NCBI GenBank assembly: GCA_003116975.1
Contig: BGKB01000003.1
Span: 310,001 to 374,000, forward strand
From: Aurantiochytrium sp. KH105
Lineage: Eukaryota; Sar; Bigyra; Thraustochytrida; Thraustochytriidae
Direction of reading: 5' to 3'
DNA: 64,000 bases
Shown: positions 32,236 to 45,052 of the stretch, one piece after another
How the letters are laid out: each line of letters begins with the position of its first letter
How positions within the stretch are numbered: the stretch's first letter is position 1
Notes under the pieces: model-generated
The model's input: the letters and a program-made list of their open reading frames with translations, nothing else
The model's database searches: none
Told to the model about the DNA's origin: nothing
Position numbers and translations under genes: made by a program

Positions 32236-32795
32236 TTCTTTGTGTTGTCCTATCACGACAGCTTGAAACTAAAATTGATGATGATGAACATGTTGATGAA
32301 ATGGATTGTTGTATAACCGATGTCTGGCCCATGACGAGCCAGTCTGCGAAAAAGGTCGAGAGTCCGTCTGCAAAAGCAGTCGAAGGCCCTGGCTGCTTAT
32401 TGTGACTGTGACTGTGATTGTGCTTGTCTTGTCTTGTCGTTGCGAAAGAAGGAGCGCTGGGTTCTTATTCTCGTTCTCTATGGTCAGCTGTTCTAGTTGT
32501 CTATCCGCTTTGTCTCTGTGTGCTTGTAGGCCTATGAAGCGTGACGAATGACGAGCAGCCTTTTAGGATTCTGCGGTCGCTCGGATTCGGACAATTTTCC
32601 CACCATTTCGTGCCATTTCGCCGCGCATTGCATGAATGAATGCACTGGGATAAAATTAGAAATCAATCCCGAATTCGGCAGGCGGCTAGGCCTGGCCTAG
32701 AACGGAGAGGCTCGGCCCGCGCGGTCGTGCCCTGTCATCAGAGCTTGGGTTCACAGGGCGATCGGCGCCGAAGCGGAGCCGAGTCTGGCGAGAAG
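32236..32795. promoter_or_regulatory. Intergenic region upstream of the SBP2-like gene
   Basis: It holds GTGACT-type repeats (about 32400-32440), TAGGCCTA at 32527-32534 and the 15-bp palindrome CTAGGCCTGGCCTAG at 32686-32700. An ATG at 32640 is in frame with the SBP2-like gene. Confidence 0.5.
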
Positions 32796-35749
32796 ATGAA
32801 CAGCAGCCACGACGACGACGATGATGGCGGCGGATGGGAGGTCGCTGGCATAAGGCGCCAAGCGCAGCGACCCAAGGGCGCTGGCCCACGAGCTCCTGCT
32901 GCGCCAGGACACAAGGCCCAAGGCCGCGGCAGAGGCCGAGCTGCACATAAAGCACGTGGCAAAGACGATGGCAAGCAACGAACTCGTACACAAACCCAGC
33001 AGAGAGAGCAAACCCAGAGGCGAAATGTGGCGCGAGGTGGTCTTGGGGGTAGTCTAAAACCCGCCCAACGAAAAGAAGACCGCGAACGTGCAGCAGCCTC
33101 CGCTTCTGCACAAACTCGAGCTTATTCAGGAACAGCTCGGCTTTTGCAACATCCCCACTCGAGAATCGATAGCACGCAAAACAAACTTGTCCCAATGGCT
33201 TCACCAAGTATCACCGCTGTTCCGTCCGTTTGGGGTCCAAACCCATCACTTCCGCCACAATCTGTCGACGGCTCTATCCCCGAGATACAGTACCCCAAAG
33301 ACACAACGAAAGAGCCCCCTCGTCCGCGGGACCCATCACAAGCTGCACATCAGGTGAAAGCCTCGGGCAAGGTTGCCCAGAAGCCGCAGAAGTCGCGGCC
33401 GAAGCCGACCCCCTCGGCCGAGATTGGTCTTGGCGGCTACCTCACGTCTGCTCTCGTCAAAAAGAAACAGAAAAGACAGACGACAGGTAGACCTACCGAG
33501 CACGAGACGTCAGGCCAGCGAAAACCCCCAGCCAAGACCACTTCGACGGGATCCAAAATGCTTCGAGCAAATCCAAATGCATTGGACTCGACCGTGCGGA
33601 GCATGGTCCGCTCGGGGAAATCTCGCGCCCCTGGAACAAAGAAGCGTAAGAAGCTGTCGACTTTGAAGAAGCAGCTGTTACGCGATCGTGCTTTGCGGTG
33701 GAAGCTTTTGTGTCCTGGAATCTCCCCAATACCCTTGCAAGTTCACCCAGCCATGTATGATTACGTTCGCGTACATTTGGCCAGTCATGCGTCGTTGCCG
33801 TCCTCATCGCTCTCGGCTGATGCCACTGTTGCTATGCGCGACGACGATGGTTCGGAAGCGTCATCTGAGGCTGAGGAATGGGTTCTTATGGATGCTCGAG
33901 ATGCAGCTGACAGCGACGATGAGGTCAATACCGGTGACATTGAGGATGGTGAGACCGATTCGGAGAATAGCGAAGGCGATTTGGGCGCCGAGGGCGACTT
34001 TGTGACCACCGAGGTAGGCCAGAGTCACCTAAGTCACGAGGAGGAGGATTTGGATTCCCCTGAAGGTGATGGTGTTCATAGCAACGACCAGACGTTTCAG
34101 TCAGGTCTCTACGAGACTGATACAGATGCTGATGTGAATGCTGATGTGGATGCTGATAATATCTTAGATGCTGATGCTGACGATGATGCAGATGCTTCTG
34201 TCGATGAGGAAGGTGTGGGCAATCTTATGGTTACTTCGAAAAGCAAGGGACTAGACGGCAACGACTCCGGCGACAAAGATGACCAAGGAAAGAAAGAAGA
34301 GGCTGTTGGCGGTAACGACGGTACCTTGGCAGCAAAATTCGTTGCAGAGTTCGCTACAGCGGACTCTTGGGATGCGAAACGCGTCTCACCGATGTTCTTT
34401 GGGTGTCCTCTTGTCCCTCTCAGTCTCGTTCAAAGCAGCAAGGACAGCAATTTATGCACCGAACAAGTTGTACCTGCCGCTTTGCCAGAGACAAGTCGTC
34501 GCGATCGTAGAAATGGTCTCCAAACAAAGCTGCGGCCGCAAGCGCTCGCACGGAGCTACGTGGACCAAGCTCTCAGTCCAGCATTGGACGAAGTGGTGAC
34601 CAGAATGCTTTCACGTCTGATGGCGCTTCAGGAACGTTTGCGACTCAAGGATCAGGTGAAATCCCAAATGCGGCGTCGACTCGTATTTGGACTGCGTGAA
34701 GTGATGCGTGGCATCCGCAGTCGTCGGTGTGTTTGCATTGTGGTGGCTTACAATATTGAGCAAGGGCGCGGGGAAGAGCTCAAGGGAATCGACCAAACTG
34801 TGCGGGAGATGATCGATCGCTGTACCCCAACGGAAGACGAGATCGAGATGGGCAAAGATGGCATCCCCGTTGTCTTTGCCTTGACCAAAACAAGACTCGG
34901 AAAGGCTTTGAACAAGCGCACGCAAGTGAGCGCTGTCGGAATTTATTCTGCGGATGGCGCTTTCGATGACTACAAAAGCATGTTGCGAATGCGCGAGACC
35001 TTGCGCAGCTTTTGGACGTCCACGGTCGATGCCGAGCGGGAAGCTGGACTTATCCCATTATGCGATGACTGCAAAAAATCCCTTTCGCCTGGCCGATTCG
35101 AGTGCATGGCGTGCCGTCGTGTAAGGTGTCAATCCTGCGCAGCTTCAGCGCGTGCCCGTCGGACTGTGTGTCAGGCCAACGTTCCCTTACATGGGGTCAC
35201 CAAGACCGTGCGAAAGCCTGCTCCATCGAAGAACTCGAAATCCAAGTCCTTGACGAGTCAAATGATTGAGGGCTCGACCACGACAGGATTCGTGCTTGGA
35301 GCGGATGCAAACGGGCAAAGCAGAAAGATGAAGAAAAAGCGCAAGGAAGCTTCTCACTTGACCGACGAGGAACCCAGCGTTCCAGAACCCTGCGACATTG
35401 TGCAAATTTCTCGAATGGTCCCTGCGAGTTTGGCTGAGGATGCGCAACGCCGGTCAGTGGAAGCGAAGAAAGCTCTGGCTGCAGGTGGCACCAACCGTGG
35501 TGGTGGACGGCGAACAGCAGGTACTGCCCCTTCGAAGCCCAGATCTGACACGAGCACCCCGAGTGCAGATGATGCCACCACCGCCGCCAGTACTTTGGAA
35601 CCTACCGCACCAGGTACTTCCGAGCCTGTAAAGTGGAACGTGGATGCGCCCGAATTCATTCCTACGACGAGCACGAATACGTTTGATGCCTCGGATGCCG
35701 GTGCAATGCAAGCCCAAGAACAACTGCAGCAACTCCTCCCCCGCCAGCA

Positions 35750-35795
<46 letters not shown>

Positions 35796-35867
35796 CAACT
35801 TATGATGATGATGATGATGGGGGGTCAGATACATCCCGGGGGAAATCCTTCGCAAGGATACTGGTGA
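32796..35867 (+). CDS. SECISBP2: SECIS-binding protein 2-like (L7Ae domain) with C-terminal Cys cluster
   Basis: The 1023-residue protein has a C-terminal L7Ae/SECISBP2 RNA-binding domain (~600-745). The run MRRRLVFGLREVMRG, then PVVFALTKTRLGKALNK and VSAVGIYSADGAFDDY, follows the SBP2 family closely. SBP2 binds SECIS hairpins in selenoprotein mRNAs and recruits the factor that inserts selenocysteine at UGA, so this organism probably makes selenoproteins. The first ~600 residues are disordered: basic Gln/Arg-rich, then acidic with a VDADAD-type tract. After L7Ae there is a C-rich segment (CDDC...CMACRRVRCQSC), unusual for SBP2 and perhaps a zinc ribbon. The end carries a poly-Gln/poly-Met tract. 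The start is ATG 32796; ATG 32640 would add 52 low-complexity residues. Confidence 0.82.
35744..35820 (+). repeat. (CAG/CAA)n-(ATG)n coding trinucleotide repeat
   Basis: Within the SBP2-like gene, CAG then CAA units encode a poly-Gln run that passes directly into ATG units encoding poly-Met. The same CAG-type/ATG order occurs at 5867-5914. Confidence 0.9.
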
Positions 35868-36205: not shown

Positions 36206-36811
36206 TTAAACGATGGAGCCAGCGTTGCTTGCAATACGGGGCCAGAGGTCAGCGCACTCCTTGCCGACGGGGCCAGTGATGGCGGAGCCCTTCATCTCAC
36301 CCTTGGGGTTGACGATGACACCGGCGTTGTCCTCGAAGTAAATGTAGGTACCGTCCTTTCGGCGCCAAGCCTTGCGCTGGCGGACGACAATACCGGGCAT
36401 CATCTTCTTGCGGAGCTCGGGCTTGCCCTTCTTCACGGAGCACAGGATCATGTCACCGACGCTGGCAGCCGGGAGACGATTCAGGCGGCCGCGGATGTTG
36501 GTCACGGCGACGACGTACTGTTGTTACATTTCAGGCAACGAGGTAACCATCGAGAGTTAGTTCAAGGTTCATTATCCGCGCTCGGATCGACCAAAGTCAT
36601 GACGCGGAAGCACAGCCCCGCTGACAGGGGAGCTTCTCTGCTCGAGTACATCTCGCCAGGAAGATCACCGCCATCTGCGAAAAAAGTATAAAGCACTTAC
36701 GAGGTTCTTGGCACCGGTGTTGTCGGCGCAGTTGAGGAGGGCCGCGGTCGGGAGACCGACGGTCATCCGGTACTTGGTGCCGGCGGCACCGGCGCGTCCA
36801 CGGGTGGGCAT
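36206..36811 (-). CDS. RPL23: 60S ribosomal protein L23 (uL14), two exons
   Basis: A two-exon gene. Exon 1 is 36811-36701 (37 codons, ATG at 36811; [14 protein letters not shown]..., ending NTGAKNL). The intron is 36700-36518 (183 nt), beginning GTAAGT and ending AACAACAG. Exon 2 is 36517-36206, opening [23 protein letters not shown] and ending [12 protein letters not shown]. The spliced protein is 140 residues, the usual length, and matches uL14 throughout, including [26 protein letters not shown] and [15 protein letters not shown]. It is a core large-subunit protein near the factor-binding site. It is divergent from RPS10. Confidence 0.97.
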
Positions 36812-37321
36812 CTTGCTGAAGAGGTGTGCTTGACCCTTTCCCTACTGTCTGCATCCACGAAAGCGTTCCGTCCTTCGTCAGTCCTCCTCGTCCTCCTCCT
36901 TCCCCTTCTCCTCTCCTCTCCTCTCCTCTCCCGCCGCCGCCACGGCCAGCCAGCCAGCCAGCCAGCCAGCTCTCGCCGTCGTCGTCCTCCTCGTGCTCGT
37001 CGCGGTCGCGGTAGCCGTCGTCGCGCGGCCTCCATCCACGCGCATCCGATGCATCTCCGCCGCGGAGCCGCGGGTGCGGCGCGCGCCGCGCACGGCTCTC
37101 CCCGCCGCGGCTCTCCTCTCCGCCCGCCGCGCCGCGCGCAGCCGCCGGCCGCGCGGCGTCTCTCTCGCCCGCGCCGGCCACGTACGCTGCGAAGTCTCGA
37201 CTCGAGTCTGATTGGTCTGGCCGCCGCGCAGATTGATGGGCGCCGGGCGGGGGCGCCTTTTCTCGGTCTCGCAATCGGAGTGGCGACGCGCGCCGCCCGG
37301 CCCCTTGCGCCGCGCACTCCG

Positions 37322-37438
37322 CACTTGCCGCCGCGCATACGCCACTTGCCGCCGCGCATACTCCACTTGCCGCCGCGGGCAAAGACGCCGCGCCGCGCAT
37401 AGCCCACTTGCCGCCGCGCATAACCCACTTGCCGCCGA
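37322..37438. repeat. 21-bp tandem repeat array, left (RPL23) side
   Basis: About six copies with a 21-bp period. The core CACTTGCCGCCGCGCATA begins at 37322, 37343, 37364, 37405 and 37426, with a degenerate unit between the third and fourth. Copies at 37364 and 37426 are shortened. Confidence 0.9.
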
Positions 37439-37709
37439 CCGCGCCTCACTTGCGACGCGCGCCACAGTGGCGCTTTCACCGACGCAAGTGGACAATGCGC
37501 TGCCGCAAGTCGACCTCACCGCCGATAACCCACTTACGCCCGCTGTCCTCCCTGCCCCACGCTTGCTCTCCCCCCCTACCCCCCTCTGATTCTCCCGACG
37601 CGGTTTCCAAACCCTCTTCCCCTATTTTCCCGGAGGCCCCCGCGCACCTTCCCCGCGCCCCGCGCCCCGTTCCCTCCCGTTCTCCCGCATGCTTTCGCCC
37701 CCTTTAAAG

Positions 37710-37754
37710 CCCTAACCCTAGCCCAACCCCGCGCCCTCGCCCATAGGGTTAGGG
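37710..37754. promoter_or_regulatory. Inverted pair of telomere-like boxes
   Basis: CCCTAACCCTA at 37710-37720 is matched by TAGGGTTAGGG at 37744-37754, separated by 23 nt. The sequence equals two telomere repeats of TTAGGG type. In plants, short telomere-like boxes are frequent in ribosomal protein gene promoters; a similar role here is inference. Confidence 0.7.
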
Positions 37755-37882
37755 TACTAATTTCGCCGGCGGGCGGCTTGGGCGCGCCGACTTGCCGCGC
37801 GCATAGCCTACTTGCGTGCGGCGTTTGCGGCACTTGCGGCGGCGACTGCGGCAGTGCGGGCGGCGGCGCAAGCGCGGAATGG

Positions 37883-37937
37883 GCGGCGGCAAGTGGGCTA
37901 TGCGCGGCGGCAAGTGGAGTATGCGCGGCGGCAAGTG
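37883..37937. repeat. 21-bp repeat array, right (RPS10) side, inverted
   Basis: Three copies of TATGCGCGGCGGCAAGTG-type sequence, ending at 37895, 37916 and 37937 with a 21-bp period. They are the exact complement of the left array core. A single + orientation partial copy is near 37789-37807. Confidence 0.9.
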
Positions 37938-38085
37938 CGGAAAGGCGGCGAAGGCGGGCAAGGGGGCAAAGAGAGAGAGGCAAGGAAGGGGAGAGGGAGA
38001 AAGAGGGGAGGCGAGAAGCGGCGGCGGCCAGGAGCAGAACGGAGTCGAGAGCAGAAGACCCAGCGGCGTCGCAGAGCCCGGCAAG

Positions 38086-38976
38086 ATGCTCGTCTCCAAG
38101 AAGGACCGCCTCGCGGTGTACTCGCACCTCTTCAAGGGTACGTGCACGGCCGACGTCGCGCCTGCCGCGCGCGAGGGCCGCGCGTCCGCCGCGTCGCGGG
38201 ATGAGCGGGGGGAATGATGATGAGGCGTGCGGCTGCGAGGGGATGAATGAACGAACGAAAGGCCACGGCGAAGGCAGGCAGCGCGGGCTTGCTTGCGTGC
38301 GGGCGGGCAGGCAGGCGTGCCGTGCGGGAGAAGAGGGAGGCAAGAGAGAGGGAGAGGGAGCGCAGGAGAGTCTTTCCTGGGAAAGGGCCCCGTCGCGAAC
38401 GATAGAGAAAGGAGGAGAAGACTGACTTTTGAAAATGTGACCTTGACGACGACAATGACGATGCTGCTTGCTGATCTTGTTGCTCCTCTTCATCGCGAAA
38501 TGTACACGTGTACACACACAGAGGGTGTTGTTGTGGCCCAGAAGGACTTCGTCAAGCCCAAGCACGAGTCCATCGATGTTTCTAACCTCATTGTCATCAA
38601 GATGATGACCTCGCTCAAGTCCCGCGGCTACGTGCGCGAGACCTTCAACTGGCAGTGGTACTACTGGTACCTTACGGAGGAGGGCATCGCCTACCTCAGG
38701 GAATTCCTCCACCTCCCCGAGGAGATCGTGCCGCAGACTCACAAGAAGCAGCAGGCCCAGGCTGCCCGCCCCGCCGGCCCTGGCGGCTTCGGCAGCGGCG
38801 ATGCCCGTGGCGCCTTTGGCGGTGACAGGTACGGCGAGCGCGGCGGCTTCTCCAAGGACGGTGGTGCCGGCCGTGACTTCAACCCCCGCTTCCGCGATGG
38901 TGGCTTTGGCCGCGGCGGTGGCGGCTTCGGCGGCGACAACTACCGGAGGGAGGGTGGCTTTGGCCGTGGCCAGTAA
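38086..38976 (+). CDS. RPS10: 40S ribosomal protein S10 (eS10), two exons
   Basis: Exon 1 is 38086-38137 (MLVSKKDRLAVYSHLFK), the intron 38138-38521 (384 nt, GTACGT...ACACACACAG) and exon 2 38522-38976, giving 168 residues. The junction codon gives K-E-G-VVVAQKDF, as in other eS10 proteins. Conserved segments are MTSLKSRGYVRETFNWQWYYWYLT and YLREFLHLPEEIVP. The C-terminal third is a Gly/Arg/Phe-rich tail (GGFGRGG) typical of eS10 and likely disordered. It is a small-subunit head protein near the mRNA entry site. Start at ATG 38086. Confidence 0.96.
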
Positions 38977-40837: not shown

Positions 40838-43800
40838 ATGAGCACAATGCGAGCCATTGCGAGCTTGACCGTGGTGATGGCCATCGCCGCCGTAACAGTG
40901 CAGGAGACCTTTGCGCAAAGCCACGGGCTGCCGAATCCATGCGGAAACGCCCCATCTTTGGCAGCCTGGTCCACGGCGCACCGGCGCCGACTTTGTGCGC
41001 AAGGACCTGACGCCAGCGCCGAGGCCGTAAGCTGTGTCGCCACCTTGGCAGACGTCTTTGGTCAGACCGAGCTTATCGAGCTCTGCGCAGACGCAACAAG
41101 TGCTCTTGCTGTAGAAGACTGCGTTCAATCAATGTCCAATGCTGCGTGGAACAAACGGGACGTGATCCGACTCTGCGCAGGCGCCAGCTCTTCTGCCGTT
41201 GGTCAGTGCGCCAATCTCATGCGCGAAGACCCACGCTTCTCCAAATTCCAGGTGGCTAGTCTATGCGCCATGACACCACAAGGCGCCGGCGCCTCAAGAG
41301 CCTCATGTGCCAGGAAAGCGCTCCGACTGGCTTCCTTTGATACCGACTACGCTGTTGAGCTCTGCCGGCTACCTGAACGAGCAGCTGCCGCCTGCGCCGA
41401 GACGGCGAGCACTGGGAATCGTGCGCTCACCGCCTTAGAGGTAGTCAGAGTTTGTCAGGGCGCAGACACGCTTGCTCCAGGGCAATGCGTTTCAGCATGT
41501 GGGAACATCTCCCCGAGCCTTTGCGCAGACATTTGCAGAGGCGCCAAATCTTCCGAGCCGGGTCGCTGTGCGTGGAACGCAGTGAAGGCAAATCACGACG
41601 AAAGTACCACACTTCGCGCCTGCAGGGATGCAACATCTGACGCGCCCGTGGCTTGTCTCGCGCAAAATCAATGGCAGCAGCTGTCAAGCTCCTATACAAT
41701 GCTCGACCGAGCTTCTTTGTGCGCTGGCGTTGACTCGAGCGAAGCCGCCGCCGGCCGTCTCAAGTGCGTGAAGCAGACCCCGCAGCAAGTCGAAACAATG
41801 TCCCGACTCGCACTCTGCAATGGGACAACCTCGGAAACCTCAACTTCGCAGACAGGACCGAGCACCTGTATTCGCGACATGTTGCGCTCCAACGCACCAA
41901 TATCGCTTTCAGACATGCTCCGCCTCTGTCAGGCAGATGGCTCGTGGTCAAGGGCAGAAGAGCATGGCGCTGCGCGCGCAAAGTGCATGCGTTCATTTCG
42001 CCAGCGTAACCCACCTCTTGAGGCTGCGCTTGCACTCTGCCGCTCGCCCGAGCGAGCCAGGGGCATCTCTGGAGATATGCAGCTGCGATGTCTCGCCGAT
42101 GCAGCAAAAGTTGACAGCACACTTTCGACGAACTTGCTTCTTGACCTCTGCACAGGTGCTCAGGACACGGGGCCAAGCTACTGTTTGCAGCGGGCCTACA
42201 AGTTGGGTTTTGTTCTCAACTCAGGTGAGGCAACCACGCTCCTGTCCACGTGCGCGAAGGACGCGCTCGCCGGTATTTGCTGTGTGGAGGCGCTGCATCG
42301 TGCCATCTCGCGCCCAGAACTCGCGCAAGTGGCAAATTTTGGCGCGCTGGCGTGTCAAAGTCCACCAGCAGCGCATTGCCACGGTCCTGCCGACTGTTTC
42401 GCCGATGCCGTCGCGAAAAAGCTTCACCCCTCATTTGCTGCGCAGCTCTGCGTTGCTGCAAAAGACTCTTACCCCGCGCAATGTGCCACGCAGCTGCGAA
42501 AGGCCAATGTGGCGGGCAAATTCCACATTGCAGACGACCGCATTTTGGACATTTGCACTCAAGAAAAAGCCCCGATGGACCTTGGAATTGAACGACGAGA
42601 CCCCGCGGCGTGTCTTGTGGCGGGCAGACCGCTTCTCAAAGCACGCGTTTTTGACCGCCCGCAAACCAAACTCGAAGAGCTCTGCCTTCGTGCAGCCTAT
42701 GGACTCGACGCTGTTGACTGTGTGATGACCCATAAGCAACTTATAGGCGCTGCCAAAACGGAAAGTGGCACGCTTGTCGACCTGTGTACAAGTGTTCCGA
42801 ATGGAACTCGAGCGATAACAGATTGCGTGGTCCAGGCACCCCTCGGGACGCCTTTCCGAGAGCGTCTCTGCCTGGGCAGTGAGTTTTCCGCACCAGCCAC
42901 ATGTGCGTCGGTCCTCAAGTCATCCACACGGCTCGATGATGAGCTCATTGTCCAGGCATGCCAGGTTGCCACAGATGATGGCGACGCTGTTGCGCGATGC
43001 GTCATTGACGGGATTGAAGCCAAGGTCAAACGCGTCACCAAGCGCGCCGTGATTCAGCTGTGCAAGCCGGGTGAAGAAAAAGACAGTTTTGTCACAATGC
43101 CAGGAGCAGAACGAGCGCAACGGGCTGCGCAGTTGGCAGAAGTCTTGGGAGTAAAGCCCTCGGAAATTACGATGCTTGTGCGGGCATCCGTGTCGCCAGA
43201 ATGCGCTCGCGCAACCTCGCAACGAGGATTCCCTCTCGCTGAAATTGCCCGTGTTTGCGGTGGTGAATCGCAAGACAATCCCACAGTTGCGTGCCTCCAG
43301 ACGCTATCGCCATCGTTCTCGTTAACGCAGGCGTTGAGACTCTGTGCACGGTCTTCGTCTGAGCGCAATGCACGTATTGCTCGGTGCATTCAGGCAGGGT
43401 CCAGTGGTGGACTGGACAATCCAGCTTCGATCACCACACTATGCGAGGGGGCTCCAAGCTTGGATCGCTCGCGAGACATTTCATCTTGCCTTCGCTTTGG
43501 GCTCGAGATCGGCGTCGCCCAAGCCAATGCAGCGCGTCTTTGCGCGAACGCGACATCTGAAACCCCCATCCGGTGCTTTGCCGAGTTGCAGCGCAACTCG
43601 GCCATAATTGATGAAGTTGAGACTCTCTCACTCTGTAGTGTTGATCCTCAAGAGGCCCCTTCCTGTGTCGCCAATGTCTTTGCGAGCGCCCGAGACTTTG
43701 AGAAGCGAAATTTGGCCAGCTTTTGCGCAACGCCGACAGCCAATGCGTCACTCGCGTGCGTCCAGGCGGCCCCATTCACCTGGAGTTTACATGAGAAGAC

Positions 43801-45052
43801 CATCTTGTGTAGAGATACCATGGGTGCCGGTCCTGGCCAATGCGCGTCAGCTGCTGGGACGAGGCTATCGCGCATGTCGAGAGGTCAGATCATCAAACTC
43901 TGCCAAAACGCCACCGACCTTCGTCCCGTATCCTGTGCGCAGACGCTGTTTCCCATGGGTGGTACAATGCTTGCCTTAGCCGTGTGTCGGCAGCCGGAGC
44001 GCTCAATTCACGAGTCTGGCGTTGAAAGTGCACCAGAGAAATGCGCGTCGCATGGTCTCATTGGACATCATGCTCCAATGGCAGGCGGGAGTGGCTTGAG
44101 TCGTCGCGCAATCGAAACGTGCCGAAAAGCAGCTTGCGTCCCTTTCAGACTTGCCGTGATTCAGACACGGGAACTGTATGAAACAATCACTTCGGGGAAG
44201 CTTCTCGCTGGCCAGAACCTGGGACCTCTCCATTTCCAGCTTGTTGACCAATTTGACTTTCCCATCAATGCGACGCAGACGTCGTCGCCTGAAGGATCGC
44301 AGCAGCTCAAGGTCTTGCTTCGAATGCGACGCGTAGGTGCTGCCGAATATCTGCCTGCGGCAAACTTGGACACAACTGAGGTCGTGTACGAGCCCGGCGC
44401 GTGGATTAGCTTTCCCACAGTGCGTGTCATTGACGTTTCGGGTGACTTTGAGTTTTTTGCGAGCTTTGCGTCCTTACCGCACATTCGCTCGTCCACCATC
44501 AAGCTCTCTGTTCACCGCGACATGGACGAAGCGCTGCGCGCAATGTCGCGTTGCGCATCAATTCCGGTGCGTCTTCAATGCGAGCTTGGGGCTTCGCCGA
44601 CGAGCTCGAACGAAACTGACTTGCATTTTGTCTCTCGTCCGTGGGCATGGTGGCTGCTCGCGCGAGCATGCGAGGATGAGCTCGCGAATATTGGCGTGCA
44701 GCTGCTGCACAGTCCGCAACCCATCGCACATGGCGTATTTTTGCATATCAAGAGCGGACCTGCAAAACTACTCGCAGGCATCGGCGTCCCCACGGAAGAA
44801 ATGTCCGCAGAGGAGATTCTCGGTGTGGAGGCGAATGCCACGTCCTCGCAACTCCGAAAAGCCTACTATCGGGCCTCGCTGGAATGGCATCCTGATCGAT
44901 GGGTCTCTTTCCACCCAGACTTGCAGTCTCAGGCCGCAGACGTTTTCCAGCGAATTGCCACGGCAAGTCGGGAGCTGCAGGATCGGCTCTCCTCGCAGGT
45001 CAAAGACGGTAGCGCTGAAGACGCTGATCGCAATTGTCAATCGTCAGCTTAG
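40838..45052 (+). CDS. Secreted/ER repeat protein (LC...C repeats) with C-terminal J domain
   Basis: The 1404-residue product starts MSTMRAIASL and has a clear signal peptide (TVVMAIAAVTVQETFAQ). From about 35 to 1100 it is built of roughly 30 diverged units of 30-45 residues, each with an LC-(G/A)-A-x-S-x-x-P-x-x-C core, e.g. LCAGASSSAVGQC, VCQGADTLAPGQC, LCANATSETPIRC; paired Cys suggest a disulfide per unit. Next comes a beta-rich Ig-like segment (~1120-1230). The end (~1320-1385) is a J domain (EILGVEANATSSQLRKAYYRASLEWHPDRW) with the HPD motif that stimulates Hsp70 ATPase. No transmembrane helix or KDEL is seen. A J domain after a signal peptide implies work with the ER Hsp70. The repeat is not one I recognise. 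Confidence 0.8.
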   Translation: MSTMRAIASLTVVMAIAAVTVQETFAQSHGLPNPCGNAPSLAAWSTAHRRRLCAQGPDASAEAVSCVATLADVFGQTELIELCADATSALAVEDCVQSMSNAAWNKRDVIRLCAGASSSAVGQCANLMREDPRFSKFQVASLCAMTPQGAGASRASCARKALRLASFDTDYAVELCRLPERAAAACAETASTGNRALTALEVVRVCQGADTLAPGQCVSACGNISPSLCADICRGAKSSEPGRCAWNAVKANHDESTTLRACRDATSDAPVACLAQNQWQQLSSSYTMLDRASLCAGVDSSEAAAGRLKCVKQTPQQVETMSRLALCNGTTSETSTSQTGPSTCIRDMLRSNAPISLSDMLRLCQADGSWSRAEEHGAARAKCMRSFRQRNPPLEAALALCRSPERARGISGDMQLRCLADAAKVDSTLSTNLLLDLCTGAQDTGPSYCLQRAYKLGFVLNSGEATTLLSTCAKDALAGICCVEALHRAISRPELAQVANFGALACQSPPAAHCHGPADCFADAVAKKLHPSFAAQLCVAAKDSYPAQCATQLRKANVAGKFHIADDRILDICTQEKAPMDLGIERRDPAACLVAGRPLLKARVFDRPQTKLEELCLRAAYGLDAVDCVMTHKQLIGAAKTESGTLVDLCTSVPNGTRAITDCVVQAPLGTPFRERLCLGSEFSAPATCASVLKSSTRLDDELIVQACQVATDDGDAVARCVIDGIEAKVKRVTKRAVIQLCKPGEEKDSFVTMPGAERAQRAAQLAEVLGVKPSEITMLVRASVSPECARATSQRGFPLAEIARVCGGESQDNPTVACLQTLSPSFSLTQALRLCARSSSERNARIARCIQAGSSGGLDNPASITTLCEGAPSLDRSRDISSCLRFGLEIGVAQANAARLCANATSETPIRCFAELQRNSAIIDEVETLSLCSVDPQEAPSCVANVFASARDFEKRNLASFCATPTANASLACVQAAPFTWSLHEKTILCRDTMGAGPGQCASAAGTRLSRMSRGQIIKLCQNATDLRPVSCAQTLFPMGGTMLALAVCRQPERSIHESGVESAPEKCASHGLIGHHAPMAGGSGLSRRAIETCRKAACVPFRLAVIQTRELYETITSGKLLAGQNLGPLHFQLVDQFDFPINATQTSSPEGSQQLKVLLRMRRVGAAEYLPAANLDTTEVVYEPGAWISFPTVRVIDVSGDFEFFASFASLPHIRSSTIKLSVHRDMDEALRAMSRCASIPVRLQCELGASPTSSNETDLHFVSRPWAWWLLARACEDELANIGVQLLHSPQPIAHGVFLHIKSGPAKLLAGIGVPTEEMSAEEILGVEANATSSQLRKAYYRASLEWHPDRWVSFHPDLQSQAADVFQRIATASRELQDRLSSQVKDGSAEDADRNCQSSA

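Follow-up and report, generated by a model that had tools for sequence, protein, structure and literature searches.

Phased arrays of candidate regulatory sites and telomere-like boxes between divergent ribosomal-protein genes of Aurantiochytrium sp. KH105

The gap between the divergent ribosomal-protein (RP) genes RPL23 and RPS10 in Aurantiochytrium sp. KH105 contains two mirrored arrays of a 21-bp unit. These arrays are probably phased, promoter-proximal sites for a candidate DNA-binding regulator, to which telomere-like boxes (teloboxes) add a second kind of site. Each array would be a promoter-proximal cluster of predicted sites for one sequence-specific DNA-binding regulator, spaced ~21.3 bp (two helical turns) apart in any relative orientation; because the sites lie two helical turns apart, the bound proteins would share one face of the DNA and might touch one another. 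The putative factor would serve hundreds of promoters, with RP genes far above average, and in the gap two such promoters would adjoin back to back, the left directed at RPL23 and the right at RPS10, with a telobox pair between them. The observations that underlie this reading are the sequence itself, the genome-wide excess of the unit, its spacing rule, its enrichment at RP genes, its conservation between haplotypes and its intergenic position in the loci examined; that a protein binds the sites, that bound neighbours touch, that the arrays activate and which array belongs to which gene are predictions.

The window is the whole stretch of DNA that was analysed, 64,000 nucleotides long; the genome searched comprises 76 Mb in 367 contigs, with the reversed pattern serving as control. 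Contigs are labelled C and fetched loci L, and locus L021 on contig C19 (the C19 copy) is the other haplotype of the window. The genes on the two sides of the gap were identified by Pfam as RPL23/uL14 (PF00238, E 5.7e-32) and RPS10 (PF03501, E 1.6e-36). The features of the gap and its flanks are as follows:

36212..36812, - strand: RPL23/uL14 start, with ATG at 36812 and a coding exon at 36212-36520 (PF00238)
36849..37185, - strand: possible RPL23 5'UTR intron, with GTACGTG donor and AG acceptor; found by eye, ends approximate
37211..37215, - strand: single CCAAT box in the RPL23 direction, the sole ATTGG/CCAAT in the gap; kept in the C19 copy
37322..37453, + strand: left array, six CACTTG units and one decayed unit; reads GCAAGTG towards RPL23
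37484..37510, - strand: inner weak units, GCAAGTG at 37484 and then GCAAGTC; opposite in direction to the left array
37710..37720, + strand: telobox CCCTAACCCTA, exact 11-mer; kept in the C19 copy
37744..37754, - strand: telobox, inverted copy, exact 11-mer; kept in the C19 copy
37789..37836, + strand: inner weak units GACTTG, TACTTG and CACTTG in 21-bp steps; towards RPL23, opposite to the right array
37868..37937, - strand: right array, three CACTTG units and a decayed fourth; reads GCAAGTG towards RPS10
38085..38976, + strand: RPS10, with ATG at 38085, an intron after the first exon and a second exon to 38976 (PF03501)

The hexamer CACTTG occurs in the left array on the + strand at 37322, 37343, 37364, 37405, 37426 and 37447, the 41-bp step from 37364 to 37405 containing a unit without its hexamer. 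In the right array it lies on the - strand at 37890, 37911 and 37932, and the decayed fourth - strand unit is near 37868. Exact copies of the 18-mer CACTTGCCGCCGCGCATA are found at 37322, 37343 and 37405 (+) and at 37899 and 37920 (-). With up to three mismatches allowed, the 18-mer has seven matches in the window against 0.09 expected, a count reached in 0 of 100 shuffles, and TRF reports a period of 21 at 37304-37437 and 37879-37937. The two teloboxes between the arrays, laid out as CCCTAACCCTA-N23-TAGGGTTAGGG, are the sole exact copies of CCCTAACCCTA in the window. The original prediction had described a 21-bp unit in two mirrored arrays between RPL23 and RPS10, with the same orientation when each is read in its own gene's direction and with an 11-bp inverted pair between them, and on all of these points it holds. 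Both sets of inner weak units had been overlooked. The CCAAT box at 37211 sits between the possible 5'UTR intron and the left array; the intron, if real, would place the RPL23 start site near that array.

Two long open frames elsewhere in the window were also noted. One, of 1075 aa (32640-35867), adjoins RPL23, and its residues 674-771 match an L7Ae-type domain (PF01248, E 2.7e-7), which we take to be of the kind found in SECIS-binding proteins. The other, of 1404 aa (40838-45052), has many short cysteine-containing repeats, recognized by eye; a DnaJ domain (PF00226, E 7.8e-10) follows close to its end.

Searched across the genome with up to three mismatches, the 18-mer gives 314 matches, versus 82 for the reversed pattern, and the stricter pattern CACTTGC-N14-CACTTG gives 537 versus 1. 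Pairs of hexamers are in excess in every relative orientation: direct pairs with a gap of N4-34 number 1358 versus 27 in the reversed control, facing pairs 258 versus 14 and back-to-back pairs 306 versus 3. Spacing is narrow as well. Steps of 20-23 bp account for 82 of the first 100 direct pairs listed, and the mean distance between hexamer centres in the main peak is 21.35 bp for direct pairs (83 of the first 100 listed), 23.98 bp for facing pairs (45 of the first 50 listed) and 18.51 bp for back-to-back pairs (37 of the first 50 listed); the last two means average 21.25 bp. A site centre displaced by 1.4 bp from that of the hexamer towards the AT-rich side, combined with a ~21.3-bp lattice that accepts sites in any orientation, explains all three spacings.

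Over the 82 listed direct pairs the consensus of the unit is CATWSYSCACTTGCG, and CATWSYS is favoured in the bases preceding the second hexamer, so the site would be ~15 bp long, roughly CGCAAGTGSRSWATG in the gene direction. Unit cores vary among loci and the hexamer is retained; CACTTG fits the E-box core CANNTG, a comparison of the core letters alone. Several arrays have a terminal reversed unit 23-24 bp away (L022:4941-4986, L029:5166-5189 and L057, where it lies 24 bp before the array), which is the facing arrangement found genome-wide.

An array of similar units could also be a neutral tandem repeat, in this case a GC-rich 21-bp minisatellite that arose by slippage or was dispersed as a mobile element. 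The units of a given array do resemble one another, and short BLAST similarities connect array loci, but in the 25 best of 305 rows these similarities extend over ~50-180 nt at the arrays or their GC-rich flanks and over nothing longer. The unit-free stretch, compared in register between the left and right arrays, matches at 19 of 30 positions (shuffle mean 10.9, P 0.0015), a degree of likeness that could stem from a local inverted duplication. Slippage alone does not explain the arrays because it gives direct copies only, whereas facing and back-to-back pairs occupy the same lattice; further, the hexamer is retained while the cores differ among loci. Considering also the conservation between haplotypes and the enrichment at RP genes described below, we find a neutral repeat very unlikely. 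As an origin for the mirrored layout, the inverted duplication of one half-promoter was considered and set aside: the 19/30 match is at most suggestive, and the similarity stops soon on both sides.

The assembly looks like two haplotypes or homeologs of ~38 Mb each. Fourteen of twenty 10-kb loci pair with one another, and L021 pairs with the window; no partner locus was fetched for L028, L029, L035, L036 and L037. Aligned columns are 94.6-97.0% identical between copies. Both arrays and both teloboxes recur in the C19 copy, where one hexamer, that at 37911 in the right array, is changed. In this comparison, which is with the second haplotype of the same genome, 29 of 32 array hexamers are identical, versus 303 of 552 hexamers of matched composition in the vicinity. 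CACTTG hexamers that stand alone in these loci are identical in 34 of 47 cases, and the difference between arrays and isolated hexamers is not significant (P 0.08). Because the loci had been chosen partly by their match, a separate count was made of the 17 hexamers that had played no part in the selection, and 15 of them are identical (P 0.004 versus matched hexamers). The genome also has a gene for a polyunsaturated fatty acid synthase of the PfaA type, as would be expected of a thraustochytrid; it scores 930 bits against TIGR02813, short of the curated cut-off of 1010. Pieces of such a gene are on C72, C155, C290 and C61, those on C61 and C155 lying at the end of the contig or close to it, as if the assembly had broken inside the gene.

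The genes beside the arrays were sought first on the side that the array faces and later, by codon score in all loci, on the other side. Faced-side open frames scanned by Pfam had a match in 10 of 20 cases, and the other-side scan covered one frame each in L029, L035 and L037. The neighbours of phased arrays include an ankyrin protein, a Kelch-RING protein, a protein kinase, mitochondrial ATP synthase d, Syf1, a lipase-like protein, FAU/eS30 and an mRNA capping enzyme. An element specific to RP genes was rejected in view of this diversity, most of the arrays examined having non-RP neighbours. Upstream of one three-domain frame (L039:4747-8622, + strand, 1292 aa), which joins NIF-type phosphatase, mRNA capping-enzyme and mRNA cap guanine-N7 methyltransferase domains, there is a phased array. 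Loci L028, L032 (kinesin) and L036 (TMEM131-like), whose units are solitary or 122 bp apart, were excluded from the array tallies.

In all ten distinct loci with a phased array (the window, L022, L024, L026, L027, L029, L030, L035, L037 and L039, the last nine being 10-kb loci), the array lies between codon-scored genes, and for the pairs tested the haplotype substitution patterns agree with intergenic placement. The original prediction had treated the arrays as promoter-associated and had named, as grounds for giving this up, dispersal of the unit through the genome with no link to promoters. The unit is dispersed genome-wide, but the link to promoters is kept, with intergenic arrays at 10/10 loci.

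Seven of the ten gaps are divergent and three are tandem (L026, L037 and L039). By hand count, divergent gaps make up 11 of the 17 that bear promoters in the window (11 of 20 when fragmented gene calls stay unmerged); since divergent gaps are this common, 7/10 is no excess, and the idea that arrays are enriched in divergent gaps was dropped. Among the tandem loci, L026 and L039 fit an orientation in which the array faces the gene, and L037, next to HSP70, runs counter to it; at L024, L027, L029 and L035, whose gaps are divergent, the array is nearer to the gene that it does not face. The same figures bear on a chromatin-opening or boundary element, in which an architectural factor would keep shared promoters nucleosome-free with little gene specificity. 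The use of all three relative orientations and the seven divergent gaps are what such an element would lead one to expect, but seven of ten does not exceed the background of common divergent gaps, and the RP enrichment suggests a function tied to a class of genes. We judge this explanation improbable.

RP loci were found with PF01248 and two chimeric yeast RP queries; among the PF01248 matches, eL30 and eL8 were named from further scans and eS12 is a guess. With RPL23, RPS10, RPLP2 and FAU excluded, the set has 23 members. Array information is available for 16 of them, from the matches listed at 21-bp steps (C1-C19), those listed at N4-34 (C1 to C8:410k) or fetched DNA; uL5, uL18, uL22, uS9 and uL13 were assessed for direct pairs at 21-bp steps only, and for uS11, uL11 and eL15 1 kb was read. 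A source of RP genes that was tried and rejected is PF00467, whose six matches are paired long frames (~1000 aa and 271-376 aa).

A direct pair lies upstream of 6 of these 16 RPs (uL2, uL16, eS6, eS12, eL8 and uS12), compared with 0.29 expected in 16 kb by density (P 6e-7, or P 3e-5 with both gene copies taken as chances). Facing pairs upstream of uS9 (C10:565488) and uL13 (C16:452757) bring the number with a direct or facing pair to 8/16. The ten assessable RPs without a direct pair include uL11, which has two decayed units, and eL30, uL5, eS4, uL22, uL18, uS11 and eL15, which have neither a direct nor a listed facing pair. Outside the RP set, arrays were found at 0 of 10 proteasome promoters fetched and at none of the PF01248 genes that we take to be NHP2-like and SNU13-like. 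A search upstream of RP genes had been proposed with the original prediction, and its outcome is divided: the unit is enriched there but is not private to RPs.

GCAAGTG points towards the RP gene in five of the six cases (uL2, uL16, eS6, eS12 and eL8). The uS12 array is opposite to uS12 and faces its divergent neighbour RPLP2 (PF00428, E 6.9e-16). Orientation towards the gene is not a firm rule. The RPLP2-RPS23/uS12 gap (C94:163343-164342, locus L057) is another place where a 60S and a 40S gene diverge, and it contains six units facing RPLP2, on one side only and without an exact telobox.

Teloboxes mark RP promoters in this genome, in support of the original prediction. The exact 11-mer occurs 69 times genome-wide, versus 15 for the reversed pattern, and lies within 1 kb upstream of 7 of the 23 RPs (uS8, uS13, eS4, uS3, uS5, uS4 and uL18), an enrichment by density with P 3e-16, or P 4e-14 when both copies are counted (45 RP copies). 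It is found at 0 of 29 proteasome gene copies; set gene against gene, RP versus proteasome (15 proteasome genes) gives a Fisher P of 0.03. RP genes account for 17 of the 69 places, 13 at the seven RPs and 4 in the RPL23-RPS10 pairs of the window and C19, and eL15 has a telobox with one mismatch. Orientation is mixed at RP genes, and no paired telobox is listed beyond the window and the C19 copy.

On C1-C19, a listed array lies no more than 700 bp from four of the 11 telobox places, or six of 13 rows, namely those at C3, C19, C8:195619 and C13:455916. For this telobox and RP comparison each array was entered by the start of its cluster, with steps of 20-23 bp required and other spacings omitted; three second-exon matches were also dropped from it. 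Among the RPs examined, telobox and array occur together at RPL23-RPS10 only, with five of the seven telobox RPs being without array assessment. These results support the telobox as a separate RP promoter mark in the KH105 genome.

The symmetry of the RPL23-RPS10 gap had originally suggested a dedicated bidirectional element that balances the output of a 60S and a 40S protein. Such an element would agree with the retention of the mirrored arrays and the inverted telobox pair in the other haplotype, and RPLP2-RPS23 provides another divergent 60S/40S pair with an array. The array of that second pair is one-sided and lacks an exact telobox, however, and arrays also occur at many non-RP genes and in tandem gaps (L026, L037 and L039). 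Nor does the gap have a single centre: the array dyads are at ~37630 and ~37660 and the telobox dyad is at 37732. With divergent gaps commonplace in addition, the balancing element is improbable, and we do not retain that part of the original prediction. Because divergent gene pairs are common, the mirrored arrays are best read as two back-to-back promoters.

RP promoters have undergone repeated evolutionary rewiring, and their wiring is little known beyond fungi, plants and animals. A genome-wide motif with strict spacing, together with a telobox tied to RP genes, amounts to a testable promoter code, and the spacing rule predicts the layout of bound proteins along the DNA. The KH105 genome also adds a lineage to those in which telomere-like boxes accompany RP genes. 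Tentatively, we suggest that the arrays may belong to a thraustochytrid general regulatory factor that would bind ~15-bp sites on a ~21.3-bp, orientation-independent lattice as a one-faced stack, and that would form, with a telobox-binding protein, a two-part RP code, equivalent to what Rap1/Tbf1 provide in yeasts and telobox/site II in plants.

The array element was not found described in the literature searched by title and start of abstract, a partial coverage that does not establish its absence from print. Several known systems can be compared with it, in each case from the part of the source that was available. An ATAC-seq study of Schizochytrium limacinum names, in that part, motif families other than the KH105 array element (PMC10840233). 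The PhRiboBox of Phytophthora infestans is 12 nt long and is present in 68 of 85 RP promoters at a median of 64 nt from the start codon (PMC4696810). Compared by description only, it resembles the present element as a stramenopile RP-promoter motif that also occurs at many other genes, but the available text of that paper describes no array.

In Candida albicans, the Tbf1 palindrome TTAGGG-N6-CCCTAA is required at RP genes, according to the portion of the report at hand (PMC2834713). The likeness lies in a TTAGGG-type element at RP genes and in inverted pairs; the window differs in that CCCTAACCCTA-N23-TAGGGTTAGGG has another order and spacing and does not form that palindrome. In rice, a telo box is reported for 209 of 252 RP genes in the accessible part of the source (PMC3022908). 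Plant telobox promoters share with KH105 a telomere-like box near RP genes and a second repeated motif; here, however, the second motif is a phased array rather than a TGGGCY-like arrangement, the exact 11-mer is found at 7/23 RPs and the two elements are mostly at separate RPs.

The Rap1 sites of Saccharomyces cerevisiae RP genes are, as far as the available text goes, paired, mostly in tandem and then head-to-head, with 2-6 bp between 15-letter sites (PMC2585575); by our own arithmetic from that gap, their centres are ~17-21 bp apart. Rap1 is also described, in the consulted part of another source, as a generalist factor (PMC2834713). KH105 likewise has closely spaced, paired sites upstream of RP genes (direct pairs at 6/16 RPs) and uses them beyond RP genes. 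The consensus given for Rap1 in the available text, WACAYCCRTAACATY (PMC2585575), is different from CGCAAGTGSRSWATG/CATWSYSCACTTGCG, and here the sites form arrays of up to six units, in three orientations and in another lineage.
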